Source: Aliidiomarina sanyensis (GTDB lineage: Bacteria; Pseudomonadota; Gammaproteobacteria; Enterobacterales; Alteromonadaceae). Taken from it: DNA of 64,000 bases. A program made the translations under genes and the position numbers. Location of the stretch: assembly GCF_003987175.1 (NCBI RefSeq), contig NZ_PIPM01000001.1, forward strand, positions 372,001-436,000, written 5' to 3'. Positions 45,276 to 56,876 of the stretch are shown here, piece after piece (within the stretch, counting starts at the first letter, position 1; each line of letters starts with the position of its first letter). The notes under the pieces are model-generated. The model worked only from the letters and a program-made list of their open reading frames with translations, did no database searches and had not been told where the DNA came from.

Positions 45276-45379
45276 CAACGCCTCCTTTGTGTACTTTTTC
45301 TGCGCTGAATTAGACACTCATTCGAAAAATAGGTATAAAAAGACAGTCACGTCTTATGTTAACACACAGGGATACAACG

Positions 45380-45760
45380 ATGAGCAAACTCGATAAAGAA
45401 CAGGTGCTTGCTGATTATACTGCCGCGTATGAGAAAGCACATGGTAAGAAGCCAGACATCGCTGAGAACAGTGGTTGGTACAGCGTCGATGGCGGAAAGA
45501 ATGTCCGTTTAGCCCAACTAGCTGAAGAGGCCGCAACGCTTGGTGGCAGTAAACCGGCTGCAAAAAAACCGAGTGCGGGTGCAAAGAAAGACAAAGCTTC
45601 TGCTGCCAAGAAAGAACCGGCCAAGAAGCCCGCTGCGAAGAAGTCATCGGCAACGAAATCCGCGAATAAAGGCGCTGGCGGCCTGACAGCAAAAGAATTG
45701 TGGAAGCAGCGACTTGCTGAACAACCCTCAGCGCGACTTCCCCGGGGCATGCAATCATAA
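45380..45760 (+). CDS. Small basic protein with histone-H1-like Lys/Ala tail
   Basis: 126-aa protein in two parts. The first 60 residues are globular and end with GWYSVDGGKNVRLAQLAEEA. They are followed by a Lys/Ala/Pro tail with repeated AAKK/PAKKP units like eukaryotic H1 and bacterial H1-like proteins. A short end AKELWKQRLAEQPSARLPRG follows. Nucleic-acid binding is likely from charge alone. I use the ATG at 45380 (MSKLDKEQ). It is divergent from the NIF3 gene and ends in a terminator. Function unknown. Confidence 0.78.
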   Translation: MSKLDKEQVLADYTAAYEKAHGKKPDIAENSGWYSVDGGKNVRLAQLAEEAATLGGSKPAAKKPSAGAKKDKASAAKKEPAKKPAAKKSSATKSANKGAGGLTAKELWKQRLAEQPSARLPRGMQS

Positions 45761-45820: not shown

Positions 45821-46351
45821 CTAATCAGCACGTTTGCGCTCCATGAAGATCGTGATTTCACCTACCCGAAATCCGAACTTGCGCATCTCCGTGCGATTGA
45901 ACAAGCGATCCTCATCGACCAAGAACATCCAGTCGTCTAACGTAATATTGATCGTTCCATCACGCCACGGGACTTCCAACTGGTATACCCAATGCAATGC
46001 ATTTCCGGCCGTGGTCCCACGCGCAATGCCAACAACGTCCCCTGCAGTACCTTCGTAACGATTTGGGCCGAGTTTCGTCAATTCCCAGACTCGCGTTTCT
46101 TCCCGACCATCATCCCAATAAAATACCTCGTCCAGAACACCTTGGTTTCCTTCCCAGGTTGCGACGATATCAGCACGGAACCGCTGAGTCACCTTACCCG
46201 AACGATCCTGAATAATTCCATACGCTACAATGTCACCGACAAAAAATTCATCGAGATTGAGAGTCGGTTCGACCCCCTCATATTCACTAATTTGAGTCGA
46301 GCACGCAGCCATGGTGAGTGCCATACCAATTCCAAGGAACCATTTTTTCAT
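45821..46351 (-). CDS. DUF3833 lipoprotein
   Basis: 176-aa lipoprotein. The start MKKWFLGIGMALTMAAC contains the lipobox; GGAGAG precedes this ATG. The mature part, with YEGVEPTLNLDEFF, FWDDGREETRVW-like YWDDGREETRVWEL, DDWMFLVDEDRLFNRTEMRK and FGFRVGEITIFMERK, matches the DUF3833 pattern, which folds as a lipocalin-like barrel. It is last in the photolyase operon. A lipid-related role is inferred from its neighbours. Confidence 0.85.
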   Translation of the reverse strand: MKKWFLGIGMALTMAACSTQISEYEGVEPTLNLDEFFVGDIVAYGIIQDRSGKVTQRFRADIVATWEGNQGVLDEVFYWDDGREETRVWELTKLGPNRYEGTAGDVVGIARGTTAGNALHWVYQLEVPWRDGTINITLDDWMFLVDEDRLFNRTEMRKFGFRVGEITIFMERKRAD

Positions 46352-46363
46352 GTCTCTCTCCAA

Positions 46364-46924
46364 TCAACGACTTGCGCCTACTAATTCATCACGACTTGAG
46401 CGATATCGCGCGTTCTCAGACAACCAAATCGCTAAAAATTGATCGGAGAATGTGTCGCTTTCGATCGTACCGAGATATCCCTCAGAACCGTAAAATGACG
46501 TTCCGTATTCGTCTCGAGCATGGGCAACGAGACATTGTCCCCGCTCCACATCGGGCCACATTTGCGCAAGCGTTTCTAACCAAGCATTCGCTTGGTCATC
46601 AAGATCAAATCCGAGTCGTTCCCATTCATCCCGAGTTTGCTCGACCAGTTGTGATGCGCTGAAATTACGCAAGTAATTCAAGCGCAACAACCGTTCCTCG
46701 GGATCATCGTAACGGCCGGATGGGCTATACAATGCCGCATCGTAGACACGGAACAAGAGAACGCGTAAACGAGTCGAACCAACCTCCTGCAGACTGGTAT
46801 CCCCCGAACCGTTCGTTAATGATTCGGCACAAGCATCGGATGCATTCGACCCGTGAGCAACTGAGACATTAAATGCCAAAAGACCTGCCACTAGAAAGGG
46901 GCTTATTCTCTTTAAAGGACGCAT
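46364..46924 (-). CDS. Exported chalcone-isomerase-like protein
   Basis: 186-aa protein with a signal peptide (MRPLKRISPFLVAGLLAFNVSVAHGS). The mature part shows GSTRLRVLLFRVYDAALYSP, LNYLRNFSASQLVEQT and a C-terminal FSDQFLAIWLSENA. These are typical of bacterial chalcone-isomerase-like proteins, whose relatives bind fatty acids. GAGGAA precedes the ATG at 46924; the open frame runs further into the upstream gene. It lies 12 bases before the DUF3833 gene. Confidence 0.82.
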   Translation of the reverse strand: MRPLKRISPFLVAGLLAFNVSVAHGSNASDACAESLTNGSGDTSLQEVGSTRLRVLLFRVYDAALYSPSGRYDDPEERLLRLNYLRNFSASQLVEQTRDEWERLGFDLDDQANAWLETLAQMWPDVERGQCLVAHARDEYGTSFYGSEGYLGTIESDTFSDQFLAIWLSENARYRSSRDELVGASR

Positions 46925-46949
46925 GACCTGTTCCTCATTCAACTCAACC

Positions 46950-47525
46950 TCAAGAATTTGAGGATGGTTCTTTCGATTCCAGATGATTACGTTGTGCGAG
47001 GATTTTCGGATTGACTTGGAATGCAATTAAGACCATCAGCAACGCCCACGCCGTCGCGTAGATTGCGATCGTAATCGGGAGTTCAAAGTGAAGCTCTGCG
47101 GCACCAAACCGAGCCCCAGCAAGATAGGTGATCGGCCCGAAAATTGCGCCTGCCAATAGAGCCAAGACGAGCCGCCGATGCAGCCAGTCGAATACGACCA
47201 AGGCCATCCCGGTAAAGCCAATCCAAAGCAGGTACAGCCAGGCAGGCACACCCGACGTGTCAGTGAAGGTAATGACCCCTCCAAGCACGGTCGCCCATTC
47301 GACCATAATACCTGCGGCAAAAATGATCAGAAAAGATTTTCGCTGTAACCACAATGGTCTCGGGGTTGCGGCGAACATCAGAGCAATCAAAAGTGCCGTC
47401 ACCCAGAACCAGTCGTTTCGACCAAGAACAGCACTTAACCAAATAAAATCAAACACCACAAATGCAACGATGCGAGGATTCTTTCCGAACCGTATAAGCG
47501 CGTTCCAGATGGGGTGTCGGTTCAT
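46950..47525 (-). CDS. DUF2878 integral membrane protein
   Basis: 191-aa inner-membrane protein with about six helices, for example WVTALLIALMFAATP, SFLIIFAAGIMVEWATVLGG and YLLWIGFTGMALVVF. DUF2878 members have no known function. They recur beside cfa-like, DUF1365 and chalcone-isomerase-like genes. The ATG at 47525 overlaps the cfa stop as ATGA; the longer frame is inside cfa. Confidence 0.83.
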   Translation of the reverse strand: MNRHPIWNALIRFGKNPRIVAFVVFDFIWLSAVLGRNDWFWVTALLIALMFAATPRPLWLQRKSFLIIFAAGIMVEWATVLGGVITFTDTSGVPAWLYLLWIGFTGMALVVFDWLHRRLVLALLAGAIFGPITYLAGARFGAAELHFELPITIAIYATAWALLMVLIAFQVNPKILAQRNHLESKEPSSNS

Positions 47526-48775
47526 GATGACGGACCTTGCAGGGCTTTCGTCGCCTGAATTTGAACCGCGCTTATCGTGCGTTGAAGAAAGCCACCTTCG
47601 CAATAACACAGATAGTAATTCCACAGGCGGGCGAACCGGTCGTCGTACCCATGTTGGCGTAATGCTGGCATATTTTGGTTAAAGCGTGAGCGCCATGCGC
47701 GCAACGTGTGGGCATAGTCGATTCCAATGTCCGATAGTTCGCGCATCACAAGCTGAGTATGCCGACGGTACATCCGACTAATTAATTCCACTGACGGTAG
47801 ATAGCCGCCGGGGAAGATATATTTTTGAATAAAATCCACGTTCCGATTGTATCGTTCGAGGCGTTGGTCAGCGATGGTAATCGCCTGCAGTACCATGGTG
47901 CCACCTGGTTTCAATAGGTCGTTACACTTCTTGAAAAAGACCGGCATGTACTCCGCCCCCACGGCTTCTATCATTTCCACCGAAACCAGTTTGTCGAACT
48001 GCCCCTCGAGGTCACGATAGTCGCGTTTTAAAAGGGTAACTTTGTCTTCAAGCCCTTGCTCACGAACCAGCGCTTGTGCATGCTTATACTGTTCTTCTGA
48101 AATGGTTGTTGTCGTGACTTTGCAGCCATACTGACTGGCAGCAAAAATAGCCAACCCGCCCCACCCCGTGCCAATTTCTACCAGGTGATCACTCGGCTTT
48201 AAATCAAGCATTGAACACAACCGAGCCAGCTTCGCTTCCTGTGCTTCCTCGATGGTCGCCTCGGGCGTTGGAAACACAGCACTTGAATACTGCATACGCG
48301 AATCAAGAAACTCGGTGTAAAGCTCGTTTCCAAGATCATAATGAGCTGCAATGTTTTCTTTCGCGCGCGTTTTACTATTTCGGCGTCTTAGATGGCTGAT
48401 GCGCTGAACAGGCCACGATAACCAAGCGAGCTTCTTCTCAAGTCTGTCCATCACATGGAGATTCGCAGCAAACAGCTCGATCACTTTCGTCACGTCAGGT
48501 GATGTCCACTCCCCCTCCACAAACGACTCACCAGCGCCAATGTCACCGCCAAGCAGAAACCGTTGGTACGTCCGTGGGGACTGAACATCAATGGTTGCAA
48601 TCGGTCCACGGTCGGCGGTCCCGAAGACTCCGACCTTCGTGCCCTGCTCCAAAATGGTCAGTTGCCCAATCGCGAGATGATTGAGTACTCGAAATAATAG
48701 GCTTCGCGTAAATTTCTCGACGCGAGACATGTCTGAAAACTCCATAACGACCGTTGTTCCTTCCGACATTCTCAT
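47522..48775 (-). CDS. cfa: Cyclopropane-fatty-acyl-phospholipid synthase family methyltransferase
   Basis: 417-aa enzyme transferring a methyl(ene) group from SAM to acyl-chain double bonds in the membrane. SAM motif I is VEIGTGWGGLAIFAA, and conserved SVEMIEAVGAEYMPVFF and FIQKYIFPGGYLPS follow. The C-terminal YYLCYCEGGFLQRTI holds the conserved Cys region. It is longer than E. coli Cfa (382 aa) at the N-terminus. Related Cfa-family enzymes in this gene context make methylated or furan fatty acids in Rhodobacter, so the product may not be a cyclopropane (inference). Confidence 0.9.
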   Translation of the reverse strand: MRMSEGTTVVMEFSDMSRVEKFTRSLLFRVLNHLAIGQLTILEQGTKVGVFGTADRGPIATIDVQSPRTYQRFLLGGDIGAGESFVEGEWTSPDVTKVIELFAANLHVMDRLEKKLAWLSWPVQRISHLRRRNSKTRAKENIAAHYDLGNELYTEFLDSRMQYSSAVFPTPEATIEEAQEAKLARLCSMLDLKPSDHLVEIGTGWGGLAIFAASQYGCKVTTTTISEEQYKHAQALVREQGLEDKVTLLKRDYRDLEGQFDKLVSVEMIEAVGAEYMPVFFKKCNDLLKPGGTMVLQAITIADQRLERYNRNVDFIQKYIFPGGYLPSVELISRMYRRHTQLVMRELSDIGIDYAHTLRAWRSRFNQNMPALRQHGYDDRFARLWNYYLCYCEGGFLQRTISAVQIQATKALQGPSS

Positions 48776-49656
48776 AACTTTGTGTCCTCTGAGTGGGTGC
48801 TTTTCCCACTTTCTTTTGTCTTCCCTTTCAACGTGACATCCTGACTTTTTGCTGAACCGGGATGACCATAGAAAGGCACACGCTTGATAAAAAGTTTCAG
48901 TGCTTGCCAGTAGATGCCCGCAACAATCTTAAGGCTCATCCACGGATGTTTCCTTAATACGGCTTGAATGGCGGCTCGGTTCAATGATTGGCGCTTCCCC
49001 GTGAGGGTTGCGTCAAAGTCTTTTTCGTCAGTATGACATCCAATGTGGACCAGAATGGGCGACTGCTCTTCTTGTTTGGGGAGCGTCAAACGCCAGTGAT
49101 AACGCATATTCATTGGGTTAAACGGAGAGACATGGAATGCTTTCGCATGGTCTGCAAGGTGTTCTAGATCCAACAGATAATAATGCCGTTCATTCCACGG
49201 CGTATTACTGACCTCGGCCAGCATATGGCTGTAAACGCCCGCCTCGTTGCGCAAGTAATAACAGTTGATTGGGCTAAAAAACAGTCCGAAACAGCGAATA
49301 TTTCCCAAGAAAAAAACATCGCCGGTCAGCTCGGTTCCAGCCAAGGCCGACATTTTTGCGCGCACCGCATTTGCGAGGGACTGATTCGGCTCTGTGCGTT
49401 GGCCGCGCAGGTAGTCCTGTGGATTGAATTGAAATACCGCGCGCTTCCTAGAGGTTGAAAGCAAACGAGATAGCCCATCAGCCGATGCGAGGTCATCTAA
49501 GTGAAACCACCACTGCATCACCGAATAATGAAAATGATGAGATTTCGGCACGAAACGACGGTGACGGACTGCGCCCCAATAAATGGCGTGTTCATGGGTG
49601 CTGTCTGCCGACACTTCCCGTGAATTGACGCTGTCTAAACGGCTAGAACCGCGCAT
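48772..49656 (-). CDS. DUF1365 protein
   Basis: 294-aa DUF1365 member. It has AIYWGAVRHRRFVPKSHHFH at the N-terminus, RCFGLFFSPINCYYLRNEAG, NTPWNERHYYLL and AFHVSPFNPMNMRYHW. No reaction is established, but the family is almost always found between a flavin amine oxidase-like gene and a cfa-like gene, exactly as here. A role in modifying unsaturated acyl chains is therefore likely. Start and stop overlap both neighbours (TAATG upstream, ATGA downstream). Confidence 0.9.
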   Translation of the reverse strand: MRGSSRLDSVNSREVSADSTHEHAIYWGAVRHRRFVPKSHHFHYSVMQWWFHLDDLASADGLSRLLSTSRKRAVFQFNPQDYLRGQRTEPNQSLANAVRAKMSALAGTELTGDVFFLGNIRCFGLFFSPINCYYLRNEAGVYSHMLAEVSNTPWNERHYYLLDLEHLADHAKAFHVSPFNPMNMRYHWRLTLPKQEEQSPILVHIGCHTDEKDFDATLTGKRQSLNRAAIQAVLRKHPWMSLKIVAGIYWQALKLFIKRVPFYGHPGSAKSQDVTLKGKTKESGKSTHSEDTKL

Positions 49657-50975
49657 TATTGGGGGGCCTGTTGACTATTTAATGCCTCCGAACCGGCATC
49701 GTCCGGCCCGGGAATTCCAAAGCGGTGTGCCACATCGACGGCACTGCGGACTCCATCTTCGTGAAAGCCACTATACCAGTATGCACCACAAAAATGCGTT
49801 CGAGCGACACCACATATTTCATGGCGCCGGGCACGCTTTTGAAATGATGCGACGCTGTAAACGGGGTGCGCATAGGTAAATTGGCCCAAAATCCGCTCGG
49901 GCGCTATCGCAGCGGTGTTATTCAGCGTAACGCAAAAGGTTTCAGGCGTTGCAGCATCAAGTCGCTGAAGGATATTCATGTTGTAAGTCACCGTTGCAGG
50001 TCGTTGCCCACCTTTCGATGTGTCCGGTAGTAAATAGTTCCAACTCGCCCAGGCCGCCTTGCGTTGTGGGAGCTGCCCAATGTCGGTATGTAGCACCACG
50101 TCATTATCTTGGTACGGAATTCCACCTAGAATTTCCCGTTCAGCGTCGGTTGCGTCACCCAATAACTGAAGGGCTTGGTCACTGTGACAGGCAAATACAA
50201 TATGATCAAACGTTTGTTGAGTGCCATCTGCAAATTCAATGACCACATGATCTGGCTGACGCGTGACGTGTGCGATATTCGCATCGAGCACAATTCGCTC
50301 GGAGAAACGTCGGGTCAGCGCAGGAATATAAGACCGAGAGCCCCCTTCAATGACATGCCATTGCGGCCGATCTGAAATATTCAGCAATCCGTGATTCATG
50401 AAGAATTTAAGGAAAAAGGCAAGTGGAAAGGCAGCCGCCTCGTCGAGGCTCGCTGACCAAATTGCCGCGCACATGGGGTATAGATAATTTTCAGAGAAAT
50501 CAGGGCCAAGCTTAAGCTCTGCGACAAATTCACGCAAGGTCACGCCGTCTAAATCAGCCTGATTGCGTGTTTGAAATGCCACCTTTGCTGCGTTATTAAA
50601 ACGGACAATATCCCGTAACATCCGGTAGAAACGCGGGCGAAGCAAATTTCTTCTTTGCGCAAACAGCGTCCACAAACTATGACCATTGTACTCGAGACCG
50701 GTCCGTGGGTTCTGGACACTAAAGGACATCTCTGTATCTTTCCAACCTACCCCAAGTTCACGCATCAGTGCACGAAAATGGGGGTAGGTACGATCATTAA
50801 AAACAATGAATCCGGTATCGATTGCATAGGCTTTTCCGTGAACTTCAACATCCACTGTTGCCGTGTGCCCTCCAATCACTTTATTTTTTTCAAAAAGATA
50901 TACTTCGTGTTCTTTCGAGAGCAAGTGGCCCGCGGTCATTCCCGCAACACCGCCACCAATGACAGCAATTTTCAT
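49656..50975 (-). CDS. FAD-dependent amine-oxidase-family oxidoreductase
   Basis: 439-aa flavoprotein. It has an N-terminal dinucleotide fold AVIGGGVAGMTAGHLLSKEH, then VIGGHTATVDVEVHGKAYAI and DTGFIVFNDRTYPHFRALM. The C-terminal FAD contact is FCGAYWYSGFHEDGVRSA. The superfamily includes phytoene desaturases and amine oxidases; this subgroup partners DUF1365 and Cfa proteins. In Rhodobacter such genes are in the RpoE-ChrR regulon and relate to furan fatty acid synthesis, so an acyl-chain desaturase is plausible. The reaction here is not shown. Confidence 0.88.
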   Translation of the reverse strand: MKIAVIGGGVAGMTAGHLLSKEHEVYLFEKNKVIGGHTATVDVEVHGKAYAIDTGFIVFNDRTYPHFRALMRELGVGWKDTEMSFSVQNPRTGLEYNGHSLWTLFAQRRNLLRPRFYRMLRDIVRFNNAAKVAFQTRNQADLDGVTLREFVAELKLGPDFSENYLYPMCAAIWSASLDEAAAFPLAFFLKFFMNHGLLNISDRPQWHVIEGGSRSYIPALTRRFSERIVLDANIAHVTRQPDHVVIEFADGTQQTFDHIVFACHSDQALQLLGDATDAEREILGGIPYQDNDVVLHTDIGQLPQRKAAWASWNYLLPDTSKGGQRPATVTYNMNILQRLDAATPETFCVTLNNTAAIAPERILGQFTYAHPVYSVASFQKRARRHEICGVARTHFCGAYWYSGFHEDGVRSAVDVAHRFGIPGPDDAGSEALNSQQAPQ

Positions 50976-51001
50976 TCATTTTCCCTAAGGTTGCGCCTTG
51001 C

Positions 51002-51748
51002 CTATTTTTGTGACTGCTTCATACGTTTTGCCAACGCCATTTGGATCCCCATCGGTAGACGCTGCATACTTGCGAGGATCCAACCAAACACGCCTGGAAA
51101 TGCAATGTGCTGTTTTCGTTTTGCAAGACCTTTGATAATTGCCTTGGACGCATCCGTCACCGAGATACGCATCGGCATATCAAAGTCATTTCGGTCTGTC
51201 ATGGGCGTTTCAACAAAACCAGGCGAGATCGTGACCACCTCAATCCCGGTTCCTGCCAGATCCGCTTGCAGCGAGCGCGCGAAATAATGCACAGCCGCTT
51301 TGCTTGCGCCATACGCTTCAGCACGCACAAACGGGAATTGACGCGCCATACTGTCGACAACGACCAAGCGATTACCCGGCTGTAAATGCGGTAACAAGCG
51401 TTCAGCGCAATAAACAACCCCAAAAAAATTGGCTGCAAACACGCGCTCAACGAGTGCTGCATCAAAATGCTGAGGATCATCAATATACTCACACACGCCG
51501 GCATTTAAAATGGCCACATCGATCGGATACGCTTTGGCGTAGCCACCCAACACGTGAGCGACCGCATCGCGTTCGGTCACATCAAACGCAAGGGAGGTGA
51601 ATTTTCCGGGTCCCGTCGTAGACGCTTCAAGCGCAGCGAGCTTCTCTTTGTTTCGACCACAGGCAATGACGTGATTCCCGGCTTGCCGATAATCTCGGCA
51701 GAGTTGTTCACCAATCCCGGAAGTTGCACCGGTAATTAAAATATTCAT
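51002..51748 (-). CDS. Short-chain dehydrogenase/reductase
   Basis: 248-aa SDR with cofactor motif GATSGIGEQL, NAG in ILNAGVCEY, catalytic Ser in VVDSMARQ and YxxxK in YGASK, then ISPGFVETPMTDRN. The C-terminal stretch FPGVFGWILASMQRLPMGIQ is hydrophobic and may touch the membrane. It overlaps the SnoaL-like gene by 4 bases, and amine oxidase follows after 26 bases. The substrate is unknown; its place in the cluster suggests a lipid-derived keto or hydroxy compound. Confidence 0.88.
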   Translation of the reverse strand: MNILITGATSGIGEQLCRDYRQAGNHVIACGRNKEKLAALEASTTGPGKFTSLAFDVTERDAVAHVLGGYAKAYPIDVAILNAGVCEYIDDPQHFDAALVERVFAANFFGVVYCAERLLPHLQPGNRLVVVDSMARQFPFVRAEAYGASKAAVHYFARSLQADLAGTGIEVVTISPGFVETPMTDRNDFDMPMRISVTDASKAIIKGLAKRKQHIAFPGVFGWILASMQRLPMGIQMALAKRMKQSQK

Positions 51749-52203
51749 GCGTGCTCCAAACGGCGACGGACCTTATTGATGACCCAGCCAAGGACTGGAA
51801 TGTGCTCGTAGATCATCGCGCCGAGATCATAGTAGTCTATATGGTGGCGAATCGAATTCGTCTCTTCGTCAAACACCACGTGGGTGGTGCCGGGCACAAC
51901 GATCTCAATCCCTCCCGCAAGTTTTTCGTGCTGTAATCTCATTTGCCAAACCAAAAAGCCCTGCTTGGCATCAATCATCTCCTCATGAATCACAAATTGA
52001 CACGACTGCGCATTACTCAGCCCATGTTCGAGGTAGGCCTGCAATGATTCACGTCCATTCACTTGCATCACGGGGTCAATGAAGGTGACCTCCTCGTGAT
52101 AAATCGACGACAGGGACTTAAGATCCTGTGCGGTCAGGTCACCATAGAAGGTTTTAAATTCCGCAATCAGGTCTCGACGCGCTTGTGTCTTAAATTTAGC
52201 CAT
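51745..52203 (-). CDS. SnoaL/NTF2-like protein
   Basis: 152-aa protein with the NTF2-like cone fold pattern: an N-terminal helix FKTFYGDLTAQDLKSLSSIY, then VTFIDPVMQVNGRESLQAYL, and the final HHIDYYDLGAMIYEHIPVLG. The family includes isomerases, hydrolases and ligand carriers, so no reaction can be assigned. It overlaps photolyase by 8 bases and the SDR by 4 bases, a tightly coupled position. Confidence 0.83.
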   Translation of the reverse strand: MAKFKTQARRDLIAEFKTFYGDLTAQDLKSLSSIYHEEVTFIDPVMQVNGRESLQAYLEHGLSNAQSCQFVIHEEMIDAKQGFLVWQMRLQHEKLAGGIEIVVPGTTHVVFDEETNSIRHHIDYYDLGAMIYEHIPVLGWVINKVRRRLEHA

Positions 52204-53626
52204 TTTTCACTCGCTTGAATGTACTGATGAAAGTTTCACGGGCTTCCTTGTGATCAACTATAGGTGCAGGGTAGTCAGATTTCCCATGCTGCGTTAACCA
52301 CTCATGGGGCTCATGAATGTATTTGTCCGGCACTGCAGCTAACGCAGGAACCCATTTACGGATGTAGGTGCCTTTCGGATCGACCTTCTCGCTTTGTCTT
52401 GTCGGATTGAACACTCTAAAATAGGGAACTGCATCGGTTCCTGTGGATGCACTCCACTGCCACCCCCCGTTATTCGCCGGAAAACTCCCATCAATCAGGT
52501 TTCGCATAAAAAATGTCTCACCCAAGCGCCAATCGATATGCAGATCTTTTGTCAGGAAATTAGCCACAATCATCCGAACTCGATTGTGCATCCAACCTGT
52601 TTCACGCAATTCCTGCATTCCGGCATCTACAATTGGAAACCCTGTTCGCCCCTCGCACCACGCCTGAAATAAATCGTTATCGTGGCTCCACGGGTAGTTG
52701 TCTGTTTCCACTTGAAAGGGCTCATGTTTGCATAAACGGGGTTCGTGGAACATGAGATGCTGATAAAATTCGCGCCAAGCAAGCTCCGATAACCAAGTGT
52801 TCATTCCTTCGTTCAAGCCGCTCGGAAATTCTGGACTTTGTTTCTGCAGAAAATGGGCAGCGACACGAGGCGAGATAGCCCCTATCTCCCAATAAGGCGA
52901 TAACTGAGACGTCCCTGGCTGAGCAGGTAAATCTCGCGTTGACGCGTAGTCAGAGACTTTCTCGAGTATGTAAGCAGAGACTTTCTTGCGAATATTTGCT
53001 TCTCCGACAACCCATCCTTGGCTTGATCGGCATACACCTTCGAGCTCGTCTGGTACGTGACATGAAATACGAGGTCCAGACGTTTTTTTCCGTATGGGCA
53101 GAACAGAGCGCTGATAAGGACCGGGAATACCGGCTCGAATTAACTCTGCTTTCCACGCTTTGAAAAAAGGTGTGAACATCTTGTAGTAACTCCCCCCACC
53201 CGTTTGAATCCGCTCGGGGGGAACAAGTAAGTTGCTATCGAAACAATGAACTGCCAACCCATGCTTTTCAGCAAGTTGTTTCACGCGGGTGTCCCGCTGT
53301 ACTTCATGGAGGGCGTACTCTCGATTAAAGTAAAGCGCTGCTGCAGAAATTTCTTTCGCATATTCAACGACTTTTTGCGCAGCGTCTTTGTATCGCTTAC
53401 CTTCAATCACATGAAGTACGTAGCCTCGCTCCGCTAAATCGTCTGCAATCGTTTGCGCGTGCCGATGATATAGCTCCCATTTTGCGGGTGACCAGTCATG
53501 CAGCTTCCACATCTCGGGGGTCGAAACCCAAACGAACTCTACCTGTTCATGTTCTCTCGTTGCCCCATAGACTGCATCGTTATCTAAGAGCCTTAGGTCG
53601 TTTCGGAACCACACCAATGCCGTCAT
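52196..53626 (-). CDS. phrB: Deoxyribodipyrimidine photolyase (CPD class I)
   Basis: Light-driven repair of cyclobutane pyrimidine dimers with FADH- and an antenna chromophore. The 476-aa protein begins LVWFRNDLRLLDNDAVYGA and has the FAD-binding C-terminal half with LSELAWREFYQHLM, MHNRVRMIVANFLTKDLHID and GGWQWSASTGTDAVPYFRVF. These are photolyase class I signatures rather than cryptochrome-DASH. It lies second in the ten-gene operon, one base after the DUF523/DUF1722 gene. Confidence 0.96.
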   Translation of the reverse strand: MTALVWFRNDLRLLDNDAVYGATREHEQVEFVWVSTPEMWKLHDWSPAKWELYHRHAQTIADDLAERGYVLHVIEGKRYKDAAQKVVEYAKEISAAALYFNREYALHEVQRDTRVKQLAEKHGLAVHCFDSNLLVPPERIQTGGGSYYKMFTPFFKAWKAELIRAGIPGPYQRSVLPIRKKTSGPRISCHVPDELEGVCRSSQGWVVGEANIRKKVSAYILEKVSDYASTRDLPAQPGTSQLSPYWEIGAISPRVAAHFLQKQSPEFPSGLNEGMNTWLSELAWREFYQHLMFHEPRLCKHEPFQVETDNYPWSHDNDLFQAWCEGRTGFPIVDAGMQELRETGWMHNRVRMIVANFLTKDLHIDWRLGETFFMRNLIDGSFPANNGGWQWSASTGTDAVPYFRVFNPTRQSEKVDPKGTYIRKWVPALAAVPDKYIHEPHEWLTQHGKSDYPAPIVDHKEARETFISTFKRVKNG

Positions 53627-53627
53627 A

Positions 53628-54560
53628 TCAAAGTCCGTACCGTAGTTTTAAATCTGTCGGATACGGCCGCAGATACGACTGGGACGCGAGATATTCATCG
53701 GGATATTGCTTTAAATAGCTCTGCACTAAGGTGAGAGGAGCCGCGAGAGGCTGCTCCCCCGCTCGGTACTGTAAAATAATGTCTGTGAGTTCTTGTCGTT
53801 GCACGTCGTTCAAGTTTTTAGAAAAGTAACCTTGTATGTGCTGCAGCACATTCGTGTGATCACGCCGACTTGCTGGGCGACTCAAGGCACTCATGAGGCG
53901 CTGAATGTAATGTGAGCAAAAACTTTCCGACACGACATCACATTCCGCGAGCTCTCGTCCAAGTGAACGATAGGTCGGTTGATCATGCGCCAATAAAGTG
54001 AGCTTGTGCCGCGCATGAAATGCATAGAGATCTGCCTTCTGAATAGGTCGCGGCAACGATTTCCATTCGTGATACACGTAGAGCCGGAGAACAAAATTTT
54101 CTCGCAGGAGCGGATCATTCAAGCGTCCGTCTTCTTCCATTGGCAACGACGGATACAACGCACGTAGACGCGCTGCGAAAATACCCATTCCTTCTTTCTG
54201 GTTTGCATTGGAATCTTCCGCATACACGCGCACTCGCTCCATACCGCAACTGGGTGATTTCGCGCAGAGAATGTAACCGCTCAACTTATCGAGTTGTGCG
54301 GTTCGAATATCAGCAAATTCTGCCAAGCGTGCCGTTACATCCTCACCGGTCTTCTGTACCACCGCTCGCGGACGCTCGACATCGCCAACCAGCCGGATGG
54401 TTGGTCGTGGAACGGACATACCAATCCCCACCTCAGGGCACAAGGGAAGGTACTCGACGTGTTTACCTAACTGGTGCTGGCAAAATGTTGACGCTTTGTG
54501 GCCACCGTCATATCGAACTTTTTGACCTAGCAAACAGGCGCTAATACCGACATAAATCAA
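53628..54560 (-). CDS. DUF523-DUF1722 (YbgA-type) protein, TTG start
   Basis: 310-aa two-domain protein. The N-terminal DUF523 has GISACLLGQKVRYDGGHK and the Cys-rich CAKSPSCGMERVRVY. The C-terminal DUF1722 begins near KADLYAFHARHKLTLLAH. In E. coli the related ybgA precedes phr, the same order as here. Its function is uncertain; homologues in the DUF523 group have been linked to thiouracil breakdown. The start is TTG at 54560 with AGAGG at the right distance. No in-frame ATG lies between it and the conserved motif, and the ATG at 54553 is out of frame. Confidence 0.88.
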   Translation of the reverse strand: MIYVGISACLLGQKVRYDGGHKASTFCQHQLGKHVEYLPLCPEVGIGMSVPRPTIRLVGDVERPRAVVQKTGEDVTARLAEFADIRTAQLDKLSGYILCAKSPSCGMERVRVYAEDSNANQKEGMGIFAARLRALYPSLPMEEDGRLNDPLLRENFVLRLYVYHEWKSLPRPIQKADLYAFHARHKLTLLAHDQPTYRSLGRELAECDVVSESFCSHYIQRLMSALSRPASRRDHTNVLQHIQGYFSKNLNDVQRQELTDIILQYRAGEQPLAAPLTLVQSYLKQYPDEYLASQSYLRPYPTDLKLRYGL

Positions 54561-54660
54561 CTGTTATCCCTCTAAAAATCAACCAATTCAACACGTAAAC
54601 GCAATCCATTGAGAGGCATTTCAATGCACTCATGACATTCTAAAAATTACCATAGCGTGA

Positions 54661-54688
54661 TTTACGAGGAATCGCATGGCCCGGATTT
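54661..54688 (-). promoter_or_regulatory. Candidate ECF-sigma promoter of the photolyase operon
   Basis: On the minus strand AAATCC, 15 bases, TCGTAAA. It resembles the TGATCC/CGTAA-type promoter recognised by the ChrR-partner sigma factors. It lies about 100 bases before the operon's TTG start. The -35 is the weakest of the three copies. Confidence 0.5.
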
Positions 54689-54718
54689 ACAAAAAGTGAA
54701 ATAAAAACGTCTCAATTC

Positions 54719-54746
54719 AGATCCAGCTGCACCCATTTGACGTAAA
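54719..54746 (+). promoter_or_regulatory. Candidate ECF-sigma promoter of the LON-domain gene
   Basis: AGATCC, 15 bases, ACGTAAA, about 120 bases before the LON-domain ATG. It has the same spacer as the copies before the photolyase operon and the sigma gene. Confidence 0.55.
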
Positions 54747-54864
54747 AAGAAGCACTTCACAAATCCACGCAGTAAGCGCACATGAGGTCGACTTGACGTT
54801 ATGCTCTATGCTGTGTGGCTTTGTCCGGAATTTAGCCGTGTGTAAAAACTGAGCAATAAAACGA

Positions 54865-55467
54865 ATGAGTGAACAAAATACGCAGACGCTTGGATTATTT
54901 CCACTGACTTCACACATACTGCCTGGAGGCCGGATGCAGTTGCGCATCTTCGAGCCACGATATGTTCGTCTGGTCCGTGAAGCACTCAAAGCACAGTCTG
55001 GATTCGGCCTGTGCATGTTGAATCCTGAAGGGTGCAAAGATGAAAATACGCATATCTTAACGACTGGAACCCTCGTGCGGATCGTTGACTTTGAAAGTCT
55101 CTCAGACGGGTATCTTGGCATCACGATCGAAGGTGACCGTATCTTCGACATTCAAGACATCTGGACAGAAAGTGATGGTCTGCGCAAAGGAACCGTGTCG
55201 CTTCGGATGCCCACTGCACAGCAGAGCGGACAGGGGGTAGATGAGCAAGATTCAATACTCATCGAGCGCTTGCGCGAAGTATTTGAGGTGTATCCTGAGT
55301 TTGCCGAGTTGTATCCAGAGAAACAGTTCGATGATCCGCTGTGGGTCTATCATCGATGGCTCGAGATTTTGCCGTTGCAACCCACCACCAAGCAAAATTT
55401 ACTCCGTCATGATTACACCAAAGATGTGCAGCATTTTTTGCATGATCTCTTCGCGCAGAATCAATAA
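54865..55467 (+). CDS. Stand-alone LON substrate-binding domain protein
   Basis: 200-aa protein consisting only of the N-terminal (PF02190-type) domain of Lon protease. It has LGLFPLTSHILPGGRMQLRI, then FEPRYVRLVREAL and GFGLCMLNPEG. It lacks ATPase and peptidase domains. The domain binds misfolded or specific substrates in Lon. Such solo proteins are widespread and not understood. Its placement between the photolyase operon and the sigma/anti-sigma pair, behind the same type of promoter, suggests a role in this stress response. Confidence 0.88.
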   Translation: MSEQNTQTLGLFPLTSHILPGGRMQLRIFEPRYVRLVREALKAQSGFGLCMLNPEGCKDENTHILTTGTLVRIVDFESLSDGYLGITIEGDRIFDIQDIWTESDGLRKGTVSLRMPTAQQSGQGVDEQDSILIERLREVFEVYPEFAELYPEKQFDDPLWVYHRWLEILPLQPTTKQNLLRHDYTKDVQHFLHDLFAQNQ

Positions 55468-55516
55468 TCGCGCTTCGAACGCGAGAAAAAATATTTATCG
55501 GCAGACAGATCCAGCG

Positions 55517-55544
55517 TGATCTATTTTGCTCAAAATGTCGTTTA
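55517..55544 (+). promoter_or_regulatory. Candidate autoregulated ECF-sigma promoter of the sigma-chrR operon
   Basis: TGATCT, 15 bases, TCGTTTA directly upstream of the sigma gene. Autoregulation through this kind of site is the rule for RpoE-ChrR pairs. Confidence 0.6.
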
Positions 55545-55591
55545 TTTAGACAAGCGAGTTGGTGCTAGTAAAAATAAAGGCGTACACTACT

Positions 55592-56218
55592 ATGCAGGTT
55601 ATGCTAGAGAAGCGGAAATCGCGGCAGTCTATGAGCTCATCGCAAAGGGAACCCCAAGAGATGACGGCTGAACATTTAGGCCAGTTATTAGCGGAAGTTG
55701 CAGACACACGTTCACGGCGTGCGTTTAGTGAATTGTTTCGGCACTTCGCTCCTCGGCTGCAATCATTTGCAACCCGCCAATTCGGCAACGAACAAACTGC
55801 AATGGACTTAGTGCAAGAAACGATGACCAACGTGTGGCACAAAGCGCATTTATTTAGCCCCGAAAAAGGGTCGCCAACCACGTGGATCTTTACCATTGCA
55901 CGAAATATCCGTTTCGATATTTTGCGCAAGAATAAACATCGACAGAATGATGTCAGCGCCGAAGATTTATGGCCGGTTCTGTCCGAGGAAACGTCAGACT
56001 CAGACGAAGAGTTTGCTTTAGACACGAAGATCTTAATGCAAGAGATTGGAGAGTATTACCTGCAACTTCCAGACGCACAGCGAATTGTCGTTGAGCAAAT
56101 TTACATTGAAGGAAAGTCGCAGCAAGAAGTTTCGGATGCCCTTGGTATTCCGCTAGGTACAGTGAAGTCACGCACACGGCTTGCGTTGCAGAAGTTAAGA
56201 GAGCTGATAAGTGAATAA
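55592..56218 (+). CDS. ECF sigma factor of the RpoE/ChrR (ECF11-like) type
   Basis: RNA polymerase sigma factor with only regions 2 and 4. Region 2 runs from FSELFRHFAPRLQSFATRQF through DLVQETMTNVWHKA and SPTTWIFTIARNIRFDILRK. Region 4 has YIEGKSQQEVSDAL and the helix-turn-helix GIPLGTVKSRTRLAL. Pairing with a ChrR-type anti-sigma marks it as the singlet-oxygen/photo-oxidative stress sigma known from Rhodobacter and Caulobacter. I start at the first ATG (55592); ATGs at 55601, 55631 and 55661 are also possible, and the N-terminal 20-30 residues look unconserved. Confidence 0.9.
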   Translation: MQVMLEKRKSRQSMSSSQREPQEMTAEHLGQLLAEVADTRSRRAFSELFRHFAPRLQSFATRQFGNEQTAMDLVQETMTNVWHKAHLFSPEKGSPTTWIFTIARNIRFDILRKNKHRQNDVSAEDLWPVLSEETSDSDEEFALDTKILMQEIGEYYLQLPDAQRIVVEQIYIEGKSQQEVSDALGIPLGTVKSRTRLALQKLRELISE

Positions 56219-56876
56219 GATTAAGTTTCATCCATCTGAAGAATTGCTTGTTGGCTACGCCAGCGGCGATCTCAACCCTGCACTCACCGTGGTCGTTGGC
56301 ACACACATTGATATGTGTCCTCGCTGCCGCAGTGTTGCGGAAGACATTCAAAACCACATGGCGACGCGCGAACTTCATCAGTCTGCGCCCTTAGCCGAGC
56401 CTGATCTGAATTCGATGCTTGAGCACATCATGGCCTCAGAGTCTCCGATCGTACGCTCCGCCAAAGTTCACGAGCAGGTATCGCTTGAGGGCAAGGTATT
56501 TAAAGTTCCTCGCTCACTCGGTCGGCACGTGGACCGCTTAGGCCCTTGGAGCCATATGCCCGGCGGTTTATGGCGAGCACCACTTGAGCTCGACGCAGAT
56601 TCACGCATGAACCTCATCTACATGCAAGAGAACGCATCACTGCCAGAGCATACGCATCGAGGCAGTGAGGCAACTTTGGTATTGAATGGTGTATTCAATG
56701 ACGAGCATGACGAGTATCGAGACGGCGACTTCATCTTCTTGGATGAACACAAGCACCACTCGCCTCAAACGACCGATGAAGATTGCTTAACCCTAGCGTA
56801 TCTTGATGCGCCGTTGCAGTTTACATCTGGATTAGCGCGTTTACTGAATCCATTCAGTAGCTTATTTTTCCGCTAG
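56211..56876 (+). CDS. chrR: ChrR-type zinc anti-sigma factor with C-terminal cupin
   Basis: 221-aa anti-sigma factor. The N-terminal zinc domain shows His7, His32, Cys36 and Cys39 (FHPSEELLVGYASGDL and GTHIDMCPRC), matching the His-His-Cys-Cys site of ChrR one residue offset. The C-terminal cupin has metal ligands in LPEHTHRGSEATLVL and LDEHKHHSPQT and is the part needed to sense singlet oxygen in Rhodobacter. It starts with GTG and overlaps the sigma gene by 8 bases, ensuring matched production. It should hold the sigma factor inactive until oxidative damage. Confidence 0.93.
   Translation: MNKIKFHPSEELLVGYASGDLNPALTVVVGTHIDMCPRCRSVAEDIQNHMATRELHQSAPLAEPDLNSMLEHIMASESPIVRSAKVHEQVSLEGKVFKVPRSLGRHVDRLGPWSHMPGGLWRAPLELDADSRMNLIYMQENASLPEHTHRGSEATLVLNGVFNDEHDEYRDGDFIFLDEHKHHSPQTTDEDCLTLAYLDAPLQFTSGLARLLNPFSSLFFR

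Follow-up and report, generated by a model that had tools for sequence, protein, structure and literature searches.

In Shewanella oneidensis, over-expression of the sigma factor RpoE2 raises the transcripts of chrR, of the Lon-domain gene SO_1987 and of SO_3386, which is ybgA, the first gene of a ybgA-phrB-cfa operon reported to be RpoE2-dependent (PMC4336711). In Rhodobacter and Rhodopseudomonas, synthesis of furan fatty acids has been demonstrated: UfaM, UfaD and UfaO, the last a DUF1365 protein, make a methylated furan fatty acid on phospholipids (Lemke and co-workers, PMC7380195). RudS, a TudS domain joined to DUF1722, erases 4-thiouridine from tRNA; its residues were tested by mutation in the P. 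putida protein, and the activity is reported for P. putida and other bacteria (PMC11417400). Genes of all these kinds lie together in the window, that is, the whole stretch of 64,000 nucleotides analyzed (positions 372,001 to 436,000 of contig NZ_PIPM01000001.1), where a plus-strand unit of a Lon-domain gene, an extracytoplasmic function (ECF) sigma factor gene and chrR faces a minus-strand operon of ten genes (Table 1). This locus is very probably a sigma-E/ChrR photo-oxidative stress system that would drive both its own Lon-sigma-chrR unit and the ten-gene operon, including a predicted furan fatty acid arm. The source genome (2.59 Mb, 47 contigs) is called Aliidiomarina-like because its DUF1365 protein is closest, among the matches listed, to those of named Aliidiomarina (58 to 66% identity) and Idiomarina. 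The evidence that the locus itself provides is gene content, gene order, catalytic residues, promoter-like sites and conservation.

What kind of switch is this? A first-pass annotation of the window had recognized a ChrR-type sigma/anti-sigma pair at 55559-56876, and the assignment stands: the closest solved sequences are RpoE and ChrR of R. sphaeroides, the two frames overlap by 8 bases, and both the HHCC zinc site and the cupin site retain their residues. Two marks of the ECF11 (sigma-E/ChrR) group are present, a sigma gene overlapping an HHCC-type chrR and the His-His-Glu-His residues of the cupin domain (a match to PF12973); the third, a TGATCC/CGTA promoter, is strong before the unit itself but weak before the operon. 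Comparisons were drawn with 80 named loci chosen by DUF1365, in which per-gene counts are tblastn matches anywhere in the locus, and with 96 genomes of the genus, family and order, the source genome included. Proteins with clean reading frames were kept from the named loci (77 UfaM, 78 UfaO, 76 ChrR, 65 Lon-domain and 27 RudS), and unclean frames were dropped. ChrR residues H7, H32, C36, C39, H147, H149, E153 and H183 are identical in 77 of 77 sequences (the window and 76 relatives). The window protein has Thr in place of the second of the two C-terminal Cys of R. sphaeroides ChrR, both of which are reported to be dispensable. The annotated TTG start of the sigma gene (55559) lies only ~13 bases behind the predicted promoter site; therefore, a later ATG, at 55592, 55601, 55631 or 55661, is probably the true start. 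One genome (G046) has two ChrR genes: the first (L161) stands with a Lon-domain gene in a stretch that has no ufa genes, the second (L162) beside a ufa cluster that has no Lon-domain gene.

Sites of the sigma-E type support the sigma-linked reading of the locus that the first-pass annotation had offered. A promoter matrix, built from the upstream stretches of the relatives with the window excluded, finds one site before each gene of interest, the Lon-domain gene, the sigma gene and, weakly, the first operon gene (Table 1). Shuffling the intergenic stretch 100 times gave a score at least as high as that of the operon site in 4 cases; the operon sites of two near relatives (L042 and L045) score 16.2 and 15.1. 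Among the relatives, a site scoring >12 precedes the Lon-domain gene in 64 of 66 cases, the sigma gene in 63 of 77 and the operon in 61 of 80, with one shuffle each giving 2, 1 and 2, respectively, rates that are partly circular because the matrix was trained on the same upstream stretches. A simpler consensus count recovered the Lon site of the window and missed the sigma and operon sites. Across the genome, the exact promoter pattern gave 14 sites vs 10 for the reversed control, no clear excess, and a looser pattern gave 64 matches vs 11 for its control; the genome has two further photolyase matches, and neither locus shows a sigma-E site scoring at least 13. Second in rank across the window is a site within the photolyase coding sequence (17.4, minus strand, 52381), 153 bases ahead of the SnoaL gene; it scores >12 in 23 of the 27 loci that carry both genes, window included. 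This site could be an internal SnoaL promoter or an effect of the photolyase protein code: it overlaps, as judged by eye, a conserved photolyase stretch (Asp-Pro ... Ile-Arg-Lys), and since such coding alone can explain it, the internal promoter was set aside. Elsewhere, a good sigma-E-like site (TGATCC, CGTAAT) is found 37 bases before a DUF4397 lipoprotein gene (L181; G000 contig C12, 62830, minus strand); this gene, which encodes 470 amino acids and has its site in an intergenic stretch, is a possible further member of the regulon.

The first-pass annotation spoke of lipid modification, which is borne out and better named a ufaD-ufaO-ufaM set, since all three types occur together in the window, and their order is kept in relatives; a cyclopropane product is unlikely, and the idea that the operon rebuilds unsaturated chains is not supported, as the Rhodobacter enzymes instead make a furan fatty acid and are themselves needed for ChrR turnover. 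The UfaM-like protein falls below the equivalog cut-offs for Cfa (287.8 bits vs 400 for NF008686). The active-site residues of E. coli Cfa that were compared, which we take to be Cys139 and His266, have a role in bicarbonate binding. In the set of 78 UfaM proteins, the His is replaced by Gln throughout (Q297 in the window) and the Cys by Ser in 57, window included, and by Ala in 20, with Cys kept in one; ChrR-linked ufaM-type genes from outside the order have Gln plus Ser or Ala in 8 of 8 cases. Of the CMAS matches in the genome, the UfaM-like gene alone is full-length, and three others are partial and weak. On the equivalog score and the active-site residues, a cyclopropane synthase at 47522-48775 was rejected, and we read the arm as furan fatty acid synthesis, with the product inferred. 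At one locus, L193, two CMAS genes lie near a single sigma/chrR pair, one of the UfaM type (Gln/Ser) and a weaker one of the Cfa type (His/Cys). Under the same regulation, could the arm still make cyclopropane or simple methyl-branched chains rather than furans? The window methyltransferase does belong to the CMAS family, the authors of the Shewanella study call their operon gene cfa (PMC4336711), and Halomonas ufaM, expressed alone in E. coli, yields a methyl-branched chain, the 11-methyl intermediate, with cyclic chains also seen in the strain (PMC12089945); against this stand the residues and score above and the UfaD and UfaO genes that adjoin the methyltransferase gene, so that such a product is unlikely. 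A literature search found no paper joining DUF1365, photolyase and cyclopropane. For UfaO, the predicted structure (pLDDT 88.7; 61 of 78 relatives in the structure alignment) has no PDB match at E <=0.001, the best being lipocalins at E 0.036 with low TM-scores; therefore, no cofactor is proposed.

The signal and the regulator invite rival explanations of their own. The locus could serve a general response to oxidants, organic peroxides or nitric oxide, with light and singlet oxygen incidental: rpoE2 mutants of S. oneidensis tolerate peroxide and paraquat poorly, and peroxide induces rpoE2-chrR (PMC4336711), while ChrR is the route by which nitric oxide acts in V. cholerae. But blue light takes the same route in V. 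cholerae, and photolyase and RudS are most readily understood as defenses against light or UV, which leaves a general response as a possible, if doubtful, alternative. Control of the operon mainly by another regulator, such as a LitR/MerR light regulator, would fit the weakness of the operon promoter site and has precedents in Pseudomonas, in which related genes are under LitR (PMC9758184, PMC11417400), and in V. cholerae, in which some light-induced genes are under MerR. It appears very unlikely here: no B12-binding domain scores above the cut-off in the genome, with one weak match below it and a LitR lacking that domain not searched for, and no MerR match to Pfam was found among the 19 neighborhood proteins scanned. 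Several points nevertheless weigh against the sigma-E/ChrR photo-oxidative reading itself: (i) singlet oxygen may not be the main signal, because the Shewanella and V. cholerae systems also answer peroxide or nitric oxide; (ii) the operon site is weak here and scores <11.5 in 13 of the 21 sequences examined, window included; (iii) the matrix also matches coding sequence, as its second-best site shows; and (iv) UfaM, UfaD and UfaO were named by family and gene order and set against the R. sphaeroides proteins by description only.

In the sigma-E/ChrR photo-oxidative stress system that we favor, ChrR would hold the sigma factor until singlet oxygen or a related oxidant caused loss of ChrR, and the freed sigma-E would transcribe the Lon-sigma-chrR unit and the ten-gene operon. 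RudS would then strip 4-thiouridine, a near-UV chromophore, from tRNA; photolyase would repair pyrimidine dimers; and UfaM, UfaD and UfaO would convert an unsaturated acyl chain of a phospholipid to a methylated furan fatty acid, which may quench or signal the oxidant and promote ChrR turnover as in Rhodobacter. The DUF2878, Chalcone_3 and DUF3833 products would probably be envelope proteins that handle the altered lipid. Sigma control, furan synthesis and RudS activity have been established in other bacteria and would carry over here by analogy; the envelope roles and the inducing signal are likewise predictions. If this model is correct, a single oxidant-sensing switch would govern the stripping of a light-sensitive base from tRNA, the photorepair of DNA and the synthesis of furan lipids, and this three-way light defense would sit in a marine bacterium without photosynthetic reaction centers. 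Its first description as non-phototrophic holds for reaction centers, as PF00124 was not found in the genome and one control gave a match; for rhodopsins, the search for a proteorhodopsin as the oxidant source was uninformative, since it matched no control genome.

How stable is this arrangement? The ten minus-strand genes from 54560 to 45821, with no gap larger than 26 bases, were correctly placed from the start: from RudS to DUF3833, the gaps are 1, -8, -4, 26, -1, -4, -103, -77 and 0 bases, and the two long overlaps become -4 and +25 with ATG starts at 47525 and 46924. The operon runs DUF523-DUF1722, photolyase, SnoaL-like, short-chain dehydrogenase, flavin amine oxidase, DUF1365, CMAS methyltransferase, DUF2878, Chalcone_3 and DUF3833. 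The sigma gene is near this operon but not, as had been stated, next to it: the plus-strand Lon-domain gene at 54865-55467, which the first-pass annotation left out, lies in between. Overall, that reading, which also missed RudS and the published regulon of Shewanella, a non-phototrophic relative, is partly supported, right in outline but incomplete. Gene order is kept in named Aliidiomarina and Idiomarina loci, from pheT and an IHF/HU-type gene through NIF3, a recurrence which argues that the arrangement is not due to chance. In the 80 named loci, UfaD is present in 80, UfaM in 79, sigma in 77, the short-chain dehydrogenase in 73 and SnoaL in 70, followed by Chalcone_3 (49), DUF3833 (40), DUF2878 (31), RudS-like (27) and photolyase (27). 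Among the 96 genomes, ChrR scores above the cut-off in 65 and DUF1365 is found in 73; both occur in 65, DUF1365 only in 8, neither in 23 and ChrR without DUF1365 in none, and 56 of the 66 ChrR matches have DUF1365 no more than 12 kb away. The stretch separating the operon from the NIF3 gene holds a Lys/Ala-rich plus-strand frame of 134 amino acids (45356-45760), which has no Pfam match and gives one or two tblastn pieces in several relatives.

Table 1. Genes and predicted promoter sites of the locus, in window coordinates.
Feature	Position	Strand	Evidence
Predicted sigma-E promoter before Lon-domain gene	54717..54748	+	Score 19.0, best of the 64-kb window, both strands
Predicted sigma-E promoter before sigma gene	55515..55546	+	Score 16.1, rank 3 in window
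Weak predicted sigma-E promoter before ten-gene operon	54659..54690	-	Score 11.2, rank 12 in window
Stand-alone Lon substrate-binding-domain protein, first gene of sigma unit	54865..55467	+	PF02190 (LON_substr_bdg) 59.2 bits, cut-off 28.7
ECF sigma factor, sigma-E/ChrR type	55559..56218	+	Pfam Sigma70_r2/r4; R. sphaeroides RpoE 2q1z E 1.9e-33 (best PDB relative)
ChrR anti-sigma factor, HHCC zinc site and cupin	56211..56876	+	TIGR02451 180.5 bits, cut-off 124.5; 2z2s E 2.7e-25
RudS-like tRNA 4-thiouridine desulfidase (TudS/DUF523 + DUF1722)	53628..54560	-	PF04463 and PF08349; TudS 6z92 E 6.8e-10
CPD-type DNA photolyase (Phr)	52196..53626	-	NF007955 508.8 bits, cut-off 506, narrow pass
SnoaL-like protein	51745..52203	-	PF12680 46.2 bits
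Short-chain dehydrogenase	51002..51748	-	PF00106 142.9 bits
UfaD-like flavin fatty-acyl desaturase	49656..50975	-	PF01593 69.1 bits; function by analogy with RSP1091
UfaO-like DUF1365 protein, predicted furan-forming oxygenase	48772..49656	-	PF07103 238.6 bits
UfaM-like S-adenosylmethionine methyltransferase, Cfa superfamily, non-canonical	47522..48775	-	PF02353 286.1 bits
DUF2878 protein, start probably 47525	46950..47624	-	PF11086 100.1 bits
Chalcone_3-like protein, start probably 46924	46364..47026	-	PF16036 34.6 bits, cut-off 27
DUF3833 protein, start probably 46351	45821..46363	-	PF12915 217.9 bits

The first operon gene brings tRNA into the predicted response. The window protein has the domain fusion of RudS, its three cluster Cys (C9, C41 and C105) and its catalytic Glu, Arg and two Ser (E43, R52, S102 and S104), and the same genome encodes ThiI, the enzyme that forms 4-thiouridine (match E 9.4e-62). 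In the RudS set, S104 is Ser in 24 sequences and Thr in 4, and the other six residues are present in 28 of 28. The P. putida study ties rudS to photolyase and LitR, and the word ChrR is absent from it (PMC11417400); a literature search found no paper joining 4-thiouridine, ChrR and photolyase. Photolyase itself, as called in the first-pass annotation, passes its curated model just above the cut-off. At the other end of the operon, the Chalcone_3-like protein has a signal-peptide-like N-terminus, DUF3833 a lipoprotein-like signal and DUF2878 a membrane-bound look (all judged by eye). The DUF3833 model is a calycin-like barrel (AlphaFold pLDDT 93.2; 35 of 40 relatives in the structure alignment, with the window protein begun one codon after the likely ATG), and Foldseek matches it to CpeS (E 1.3e-4) and Ycf58 (E 6.3e-4), the latter fatty-acid-binding-protein-like. 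Two loci outside the order, L189 and L190, have ufaD-ufaO, a gap, DUF3833 and a short-chain dehydrogenase gene divergent from sigma-chrR, which fits the order and lengths of RSP_1091-1087. Because of this fit, and because RSP1087-1089 are reported to be dispensable for furan synthesis in R. sphaeroides, the envelope genes are more likely to handle the lipid or its damage than to make it.

The Lon-domain gene is the least explained part of the locus. It lies directly upstream of sigma, on the same strand, in 66 of the 77 named loci with sigma, and tblastn within the locus gave no match in the other 11. Among the matches listed from the 96 genomes, 34 of 46 stand-alone Lon genes share the strand of ChrR and lie no more than 3 kb from it; the 12 that are not adjacent, 7 in genomes without ChrR above the cut-off and 5 in genomes with it, indicate that the protein can exist apart from ChrR. 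These counts leave out frames of >300 amino acids (Lon proteases, one of 358 amino acids) and two broken or 79-amino-acid fragments (G068:C236 and G089:C72), and they give a Lon status for 39 of the 65 ChrR genomes, the other 26 including the window's own. In a closer look at 16 stretches, Lon-sigma-chrR occurs without ufa genes in L157, L158, L159 and L161, with the Lon gene ~3 kb upstream in L160; Lon, sigma-chrR and a ufa cluster occur together in L165, L166 (both with weak Lon scores), L169, L170, L171 and L172; and no Lon-domain gene was found in the remaining five (L162, L163, L164, L167 and L168). Where ChrR is far from ufa genes (8 of 10 such cases inspected), a Lon gene is adjacent in 4, at 3 kb in 1 and not so placed in 3. 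Of 30 ChrR loci across the phylum, 7 of the 8 within the order have the gene in their short flanks; outside the order, it was found in 0 of 22 loci with short flanks and in 0 of 14 longer stretches.

What might such a protein do? A 2019 review by workers on Rhodobacter counts the proteins and proteases controlling ChrR turnover as unknown, and homologs of DegS and RseP have been implicated in Rhodobacter (PMC3818230). A role in ChrR turnover is a fair guess, for which the Lon-domain gene offers a concrete candidate; a role in general quality control is at least as plausible. A more specific proposal, which we consider improbable, is that the Lon-domain protein, made under sigma-E, recognizes ChrR (or sigma-E) in an oxidized or unfolded state and either passes it on to a protease or prevents that transfer, setting the speed at which the response goes on or off. 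If this were true, the question which factor degrades ChrR would have an order-specific answer.

The kind of system described here is already known (PMC4336711, PMC3818230, PMC7380195; Dufour 2008 as cited in PMC6852236). Shewanella shares the overlapping rpoE2-chrR genes, with SO_1987 beside them by locus number, the ybgA-phrB-cfa operon and RpoE2 promoters carrying the same two words, TGATCC and CGTAAT (PMC4336711). However, its regulator (SO_1985-1987) and operon (SO_3386-3374) are distant by locus number, whereas they are neighbors in the window, and the word furan is absent from that paper. In Rhodobacter, as here, a ufaD-ufaO operon adjoins rpoE-chrR, with an RpoE promoter for both (PMC3818230), and the window's short-chain dehydrogenase and DUF3833 genes may match RSP_1087 and RSP_1088, given the lengths and order in L189 and L190; unlike in the window, ufaM is far from ufaD and ufaO, and the 16-kb stretches of L189 and L190, which have the Rhodobacter-type layout, contain no Lon-domain gene and no RudS. 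Pseudomonas combines phrB, a short-chain dehydrogenase, an FAD oxidoreductase and ufaM in one region with a light-inducible promoter (PMC9758184), and phrB, LitR and RudS share an operon (PMC11417400), but there a class II LitR and its LOV partner are in control rather than sigma-E/ChrR (PMC9758184). To these systems, the present locus adds a fuller reading of the operon, with RudS, photolyase and UfaM rather than Cfa, and a close, order-limited bond between the Lon-domain gene and sigma-chrR.

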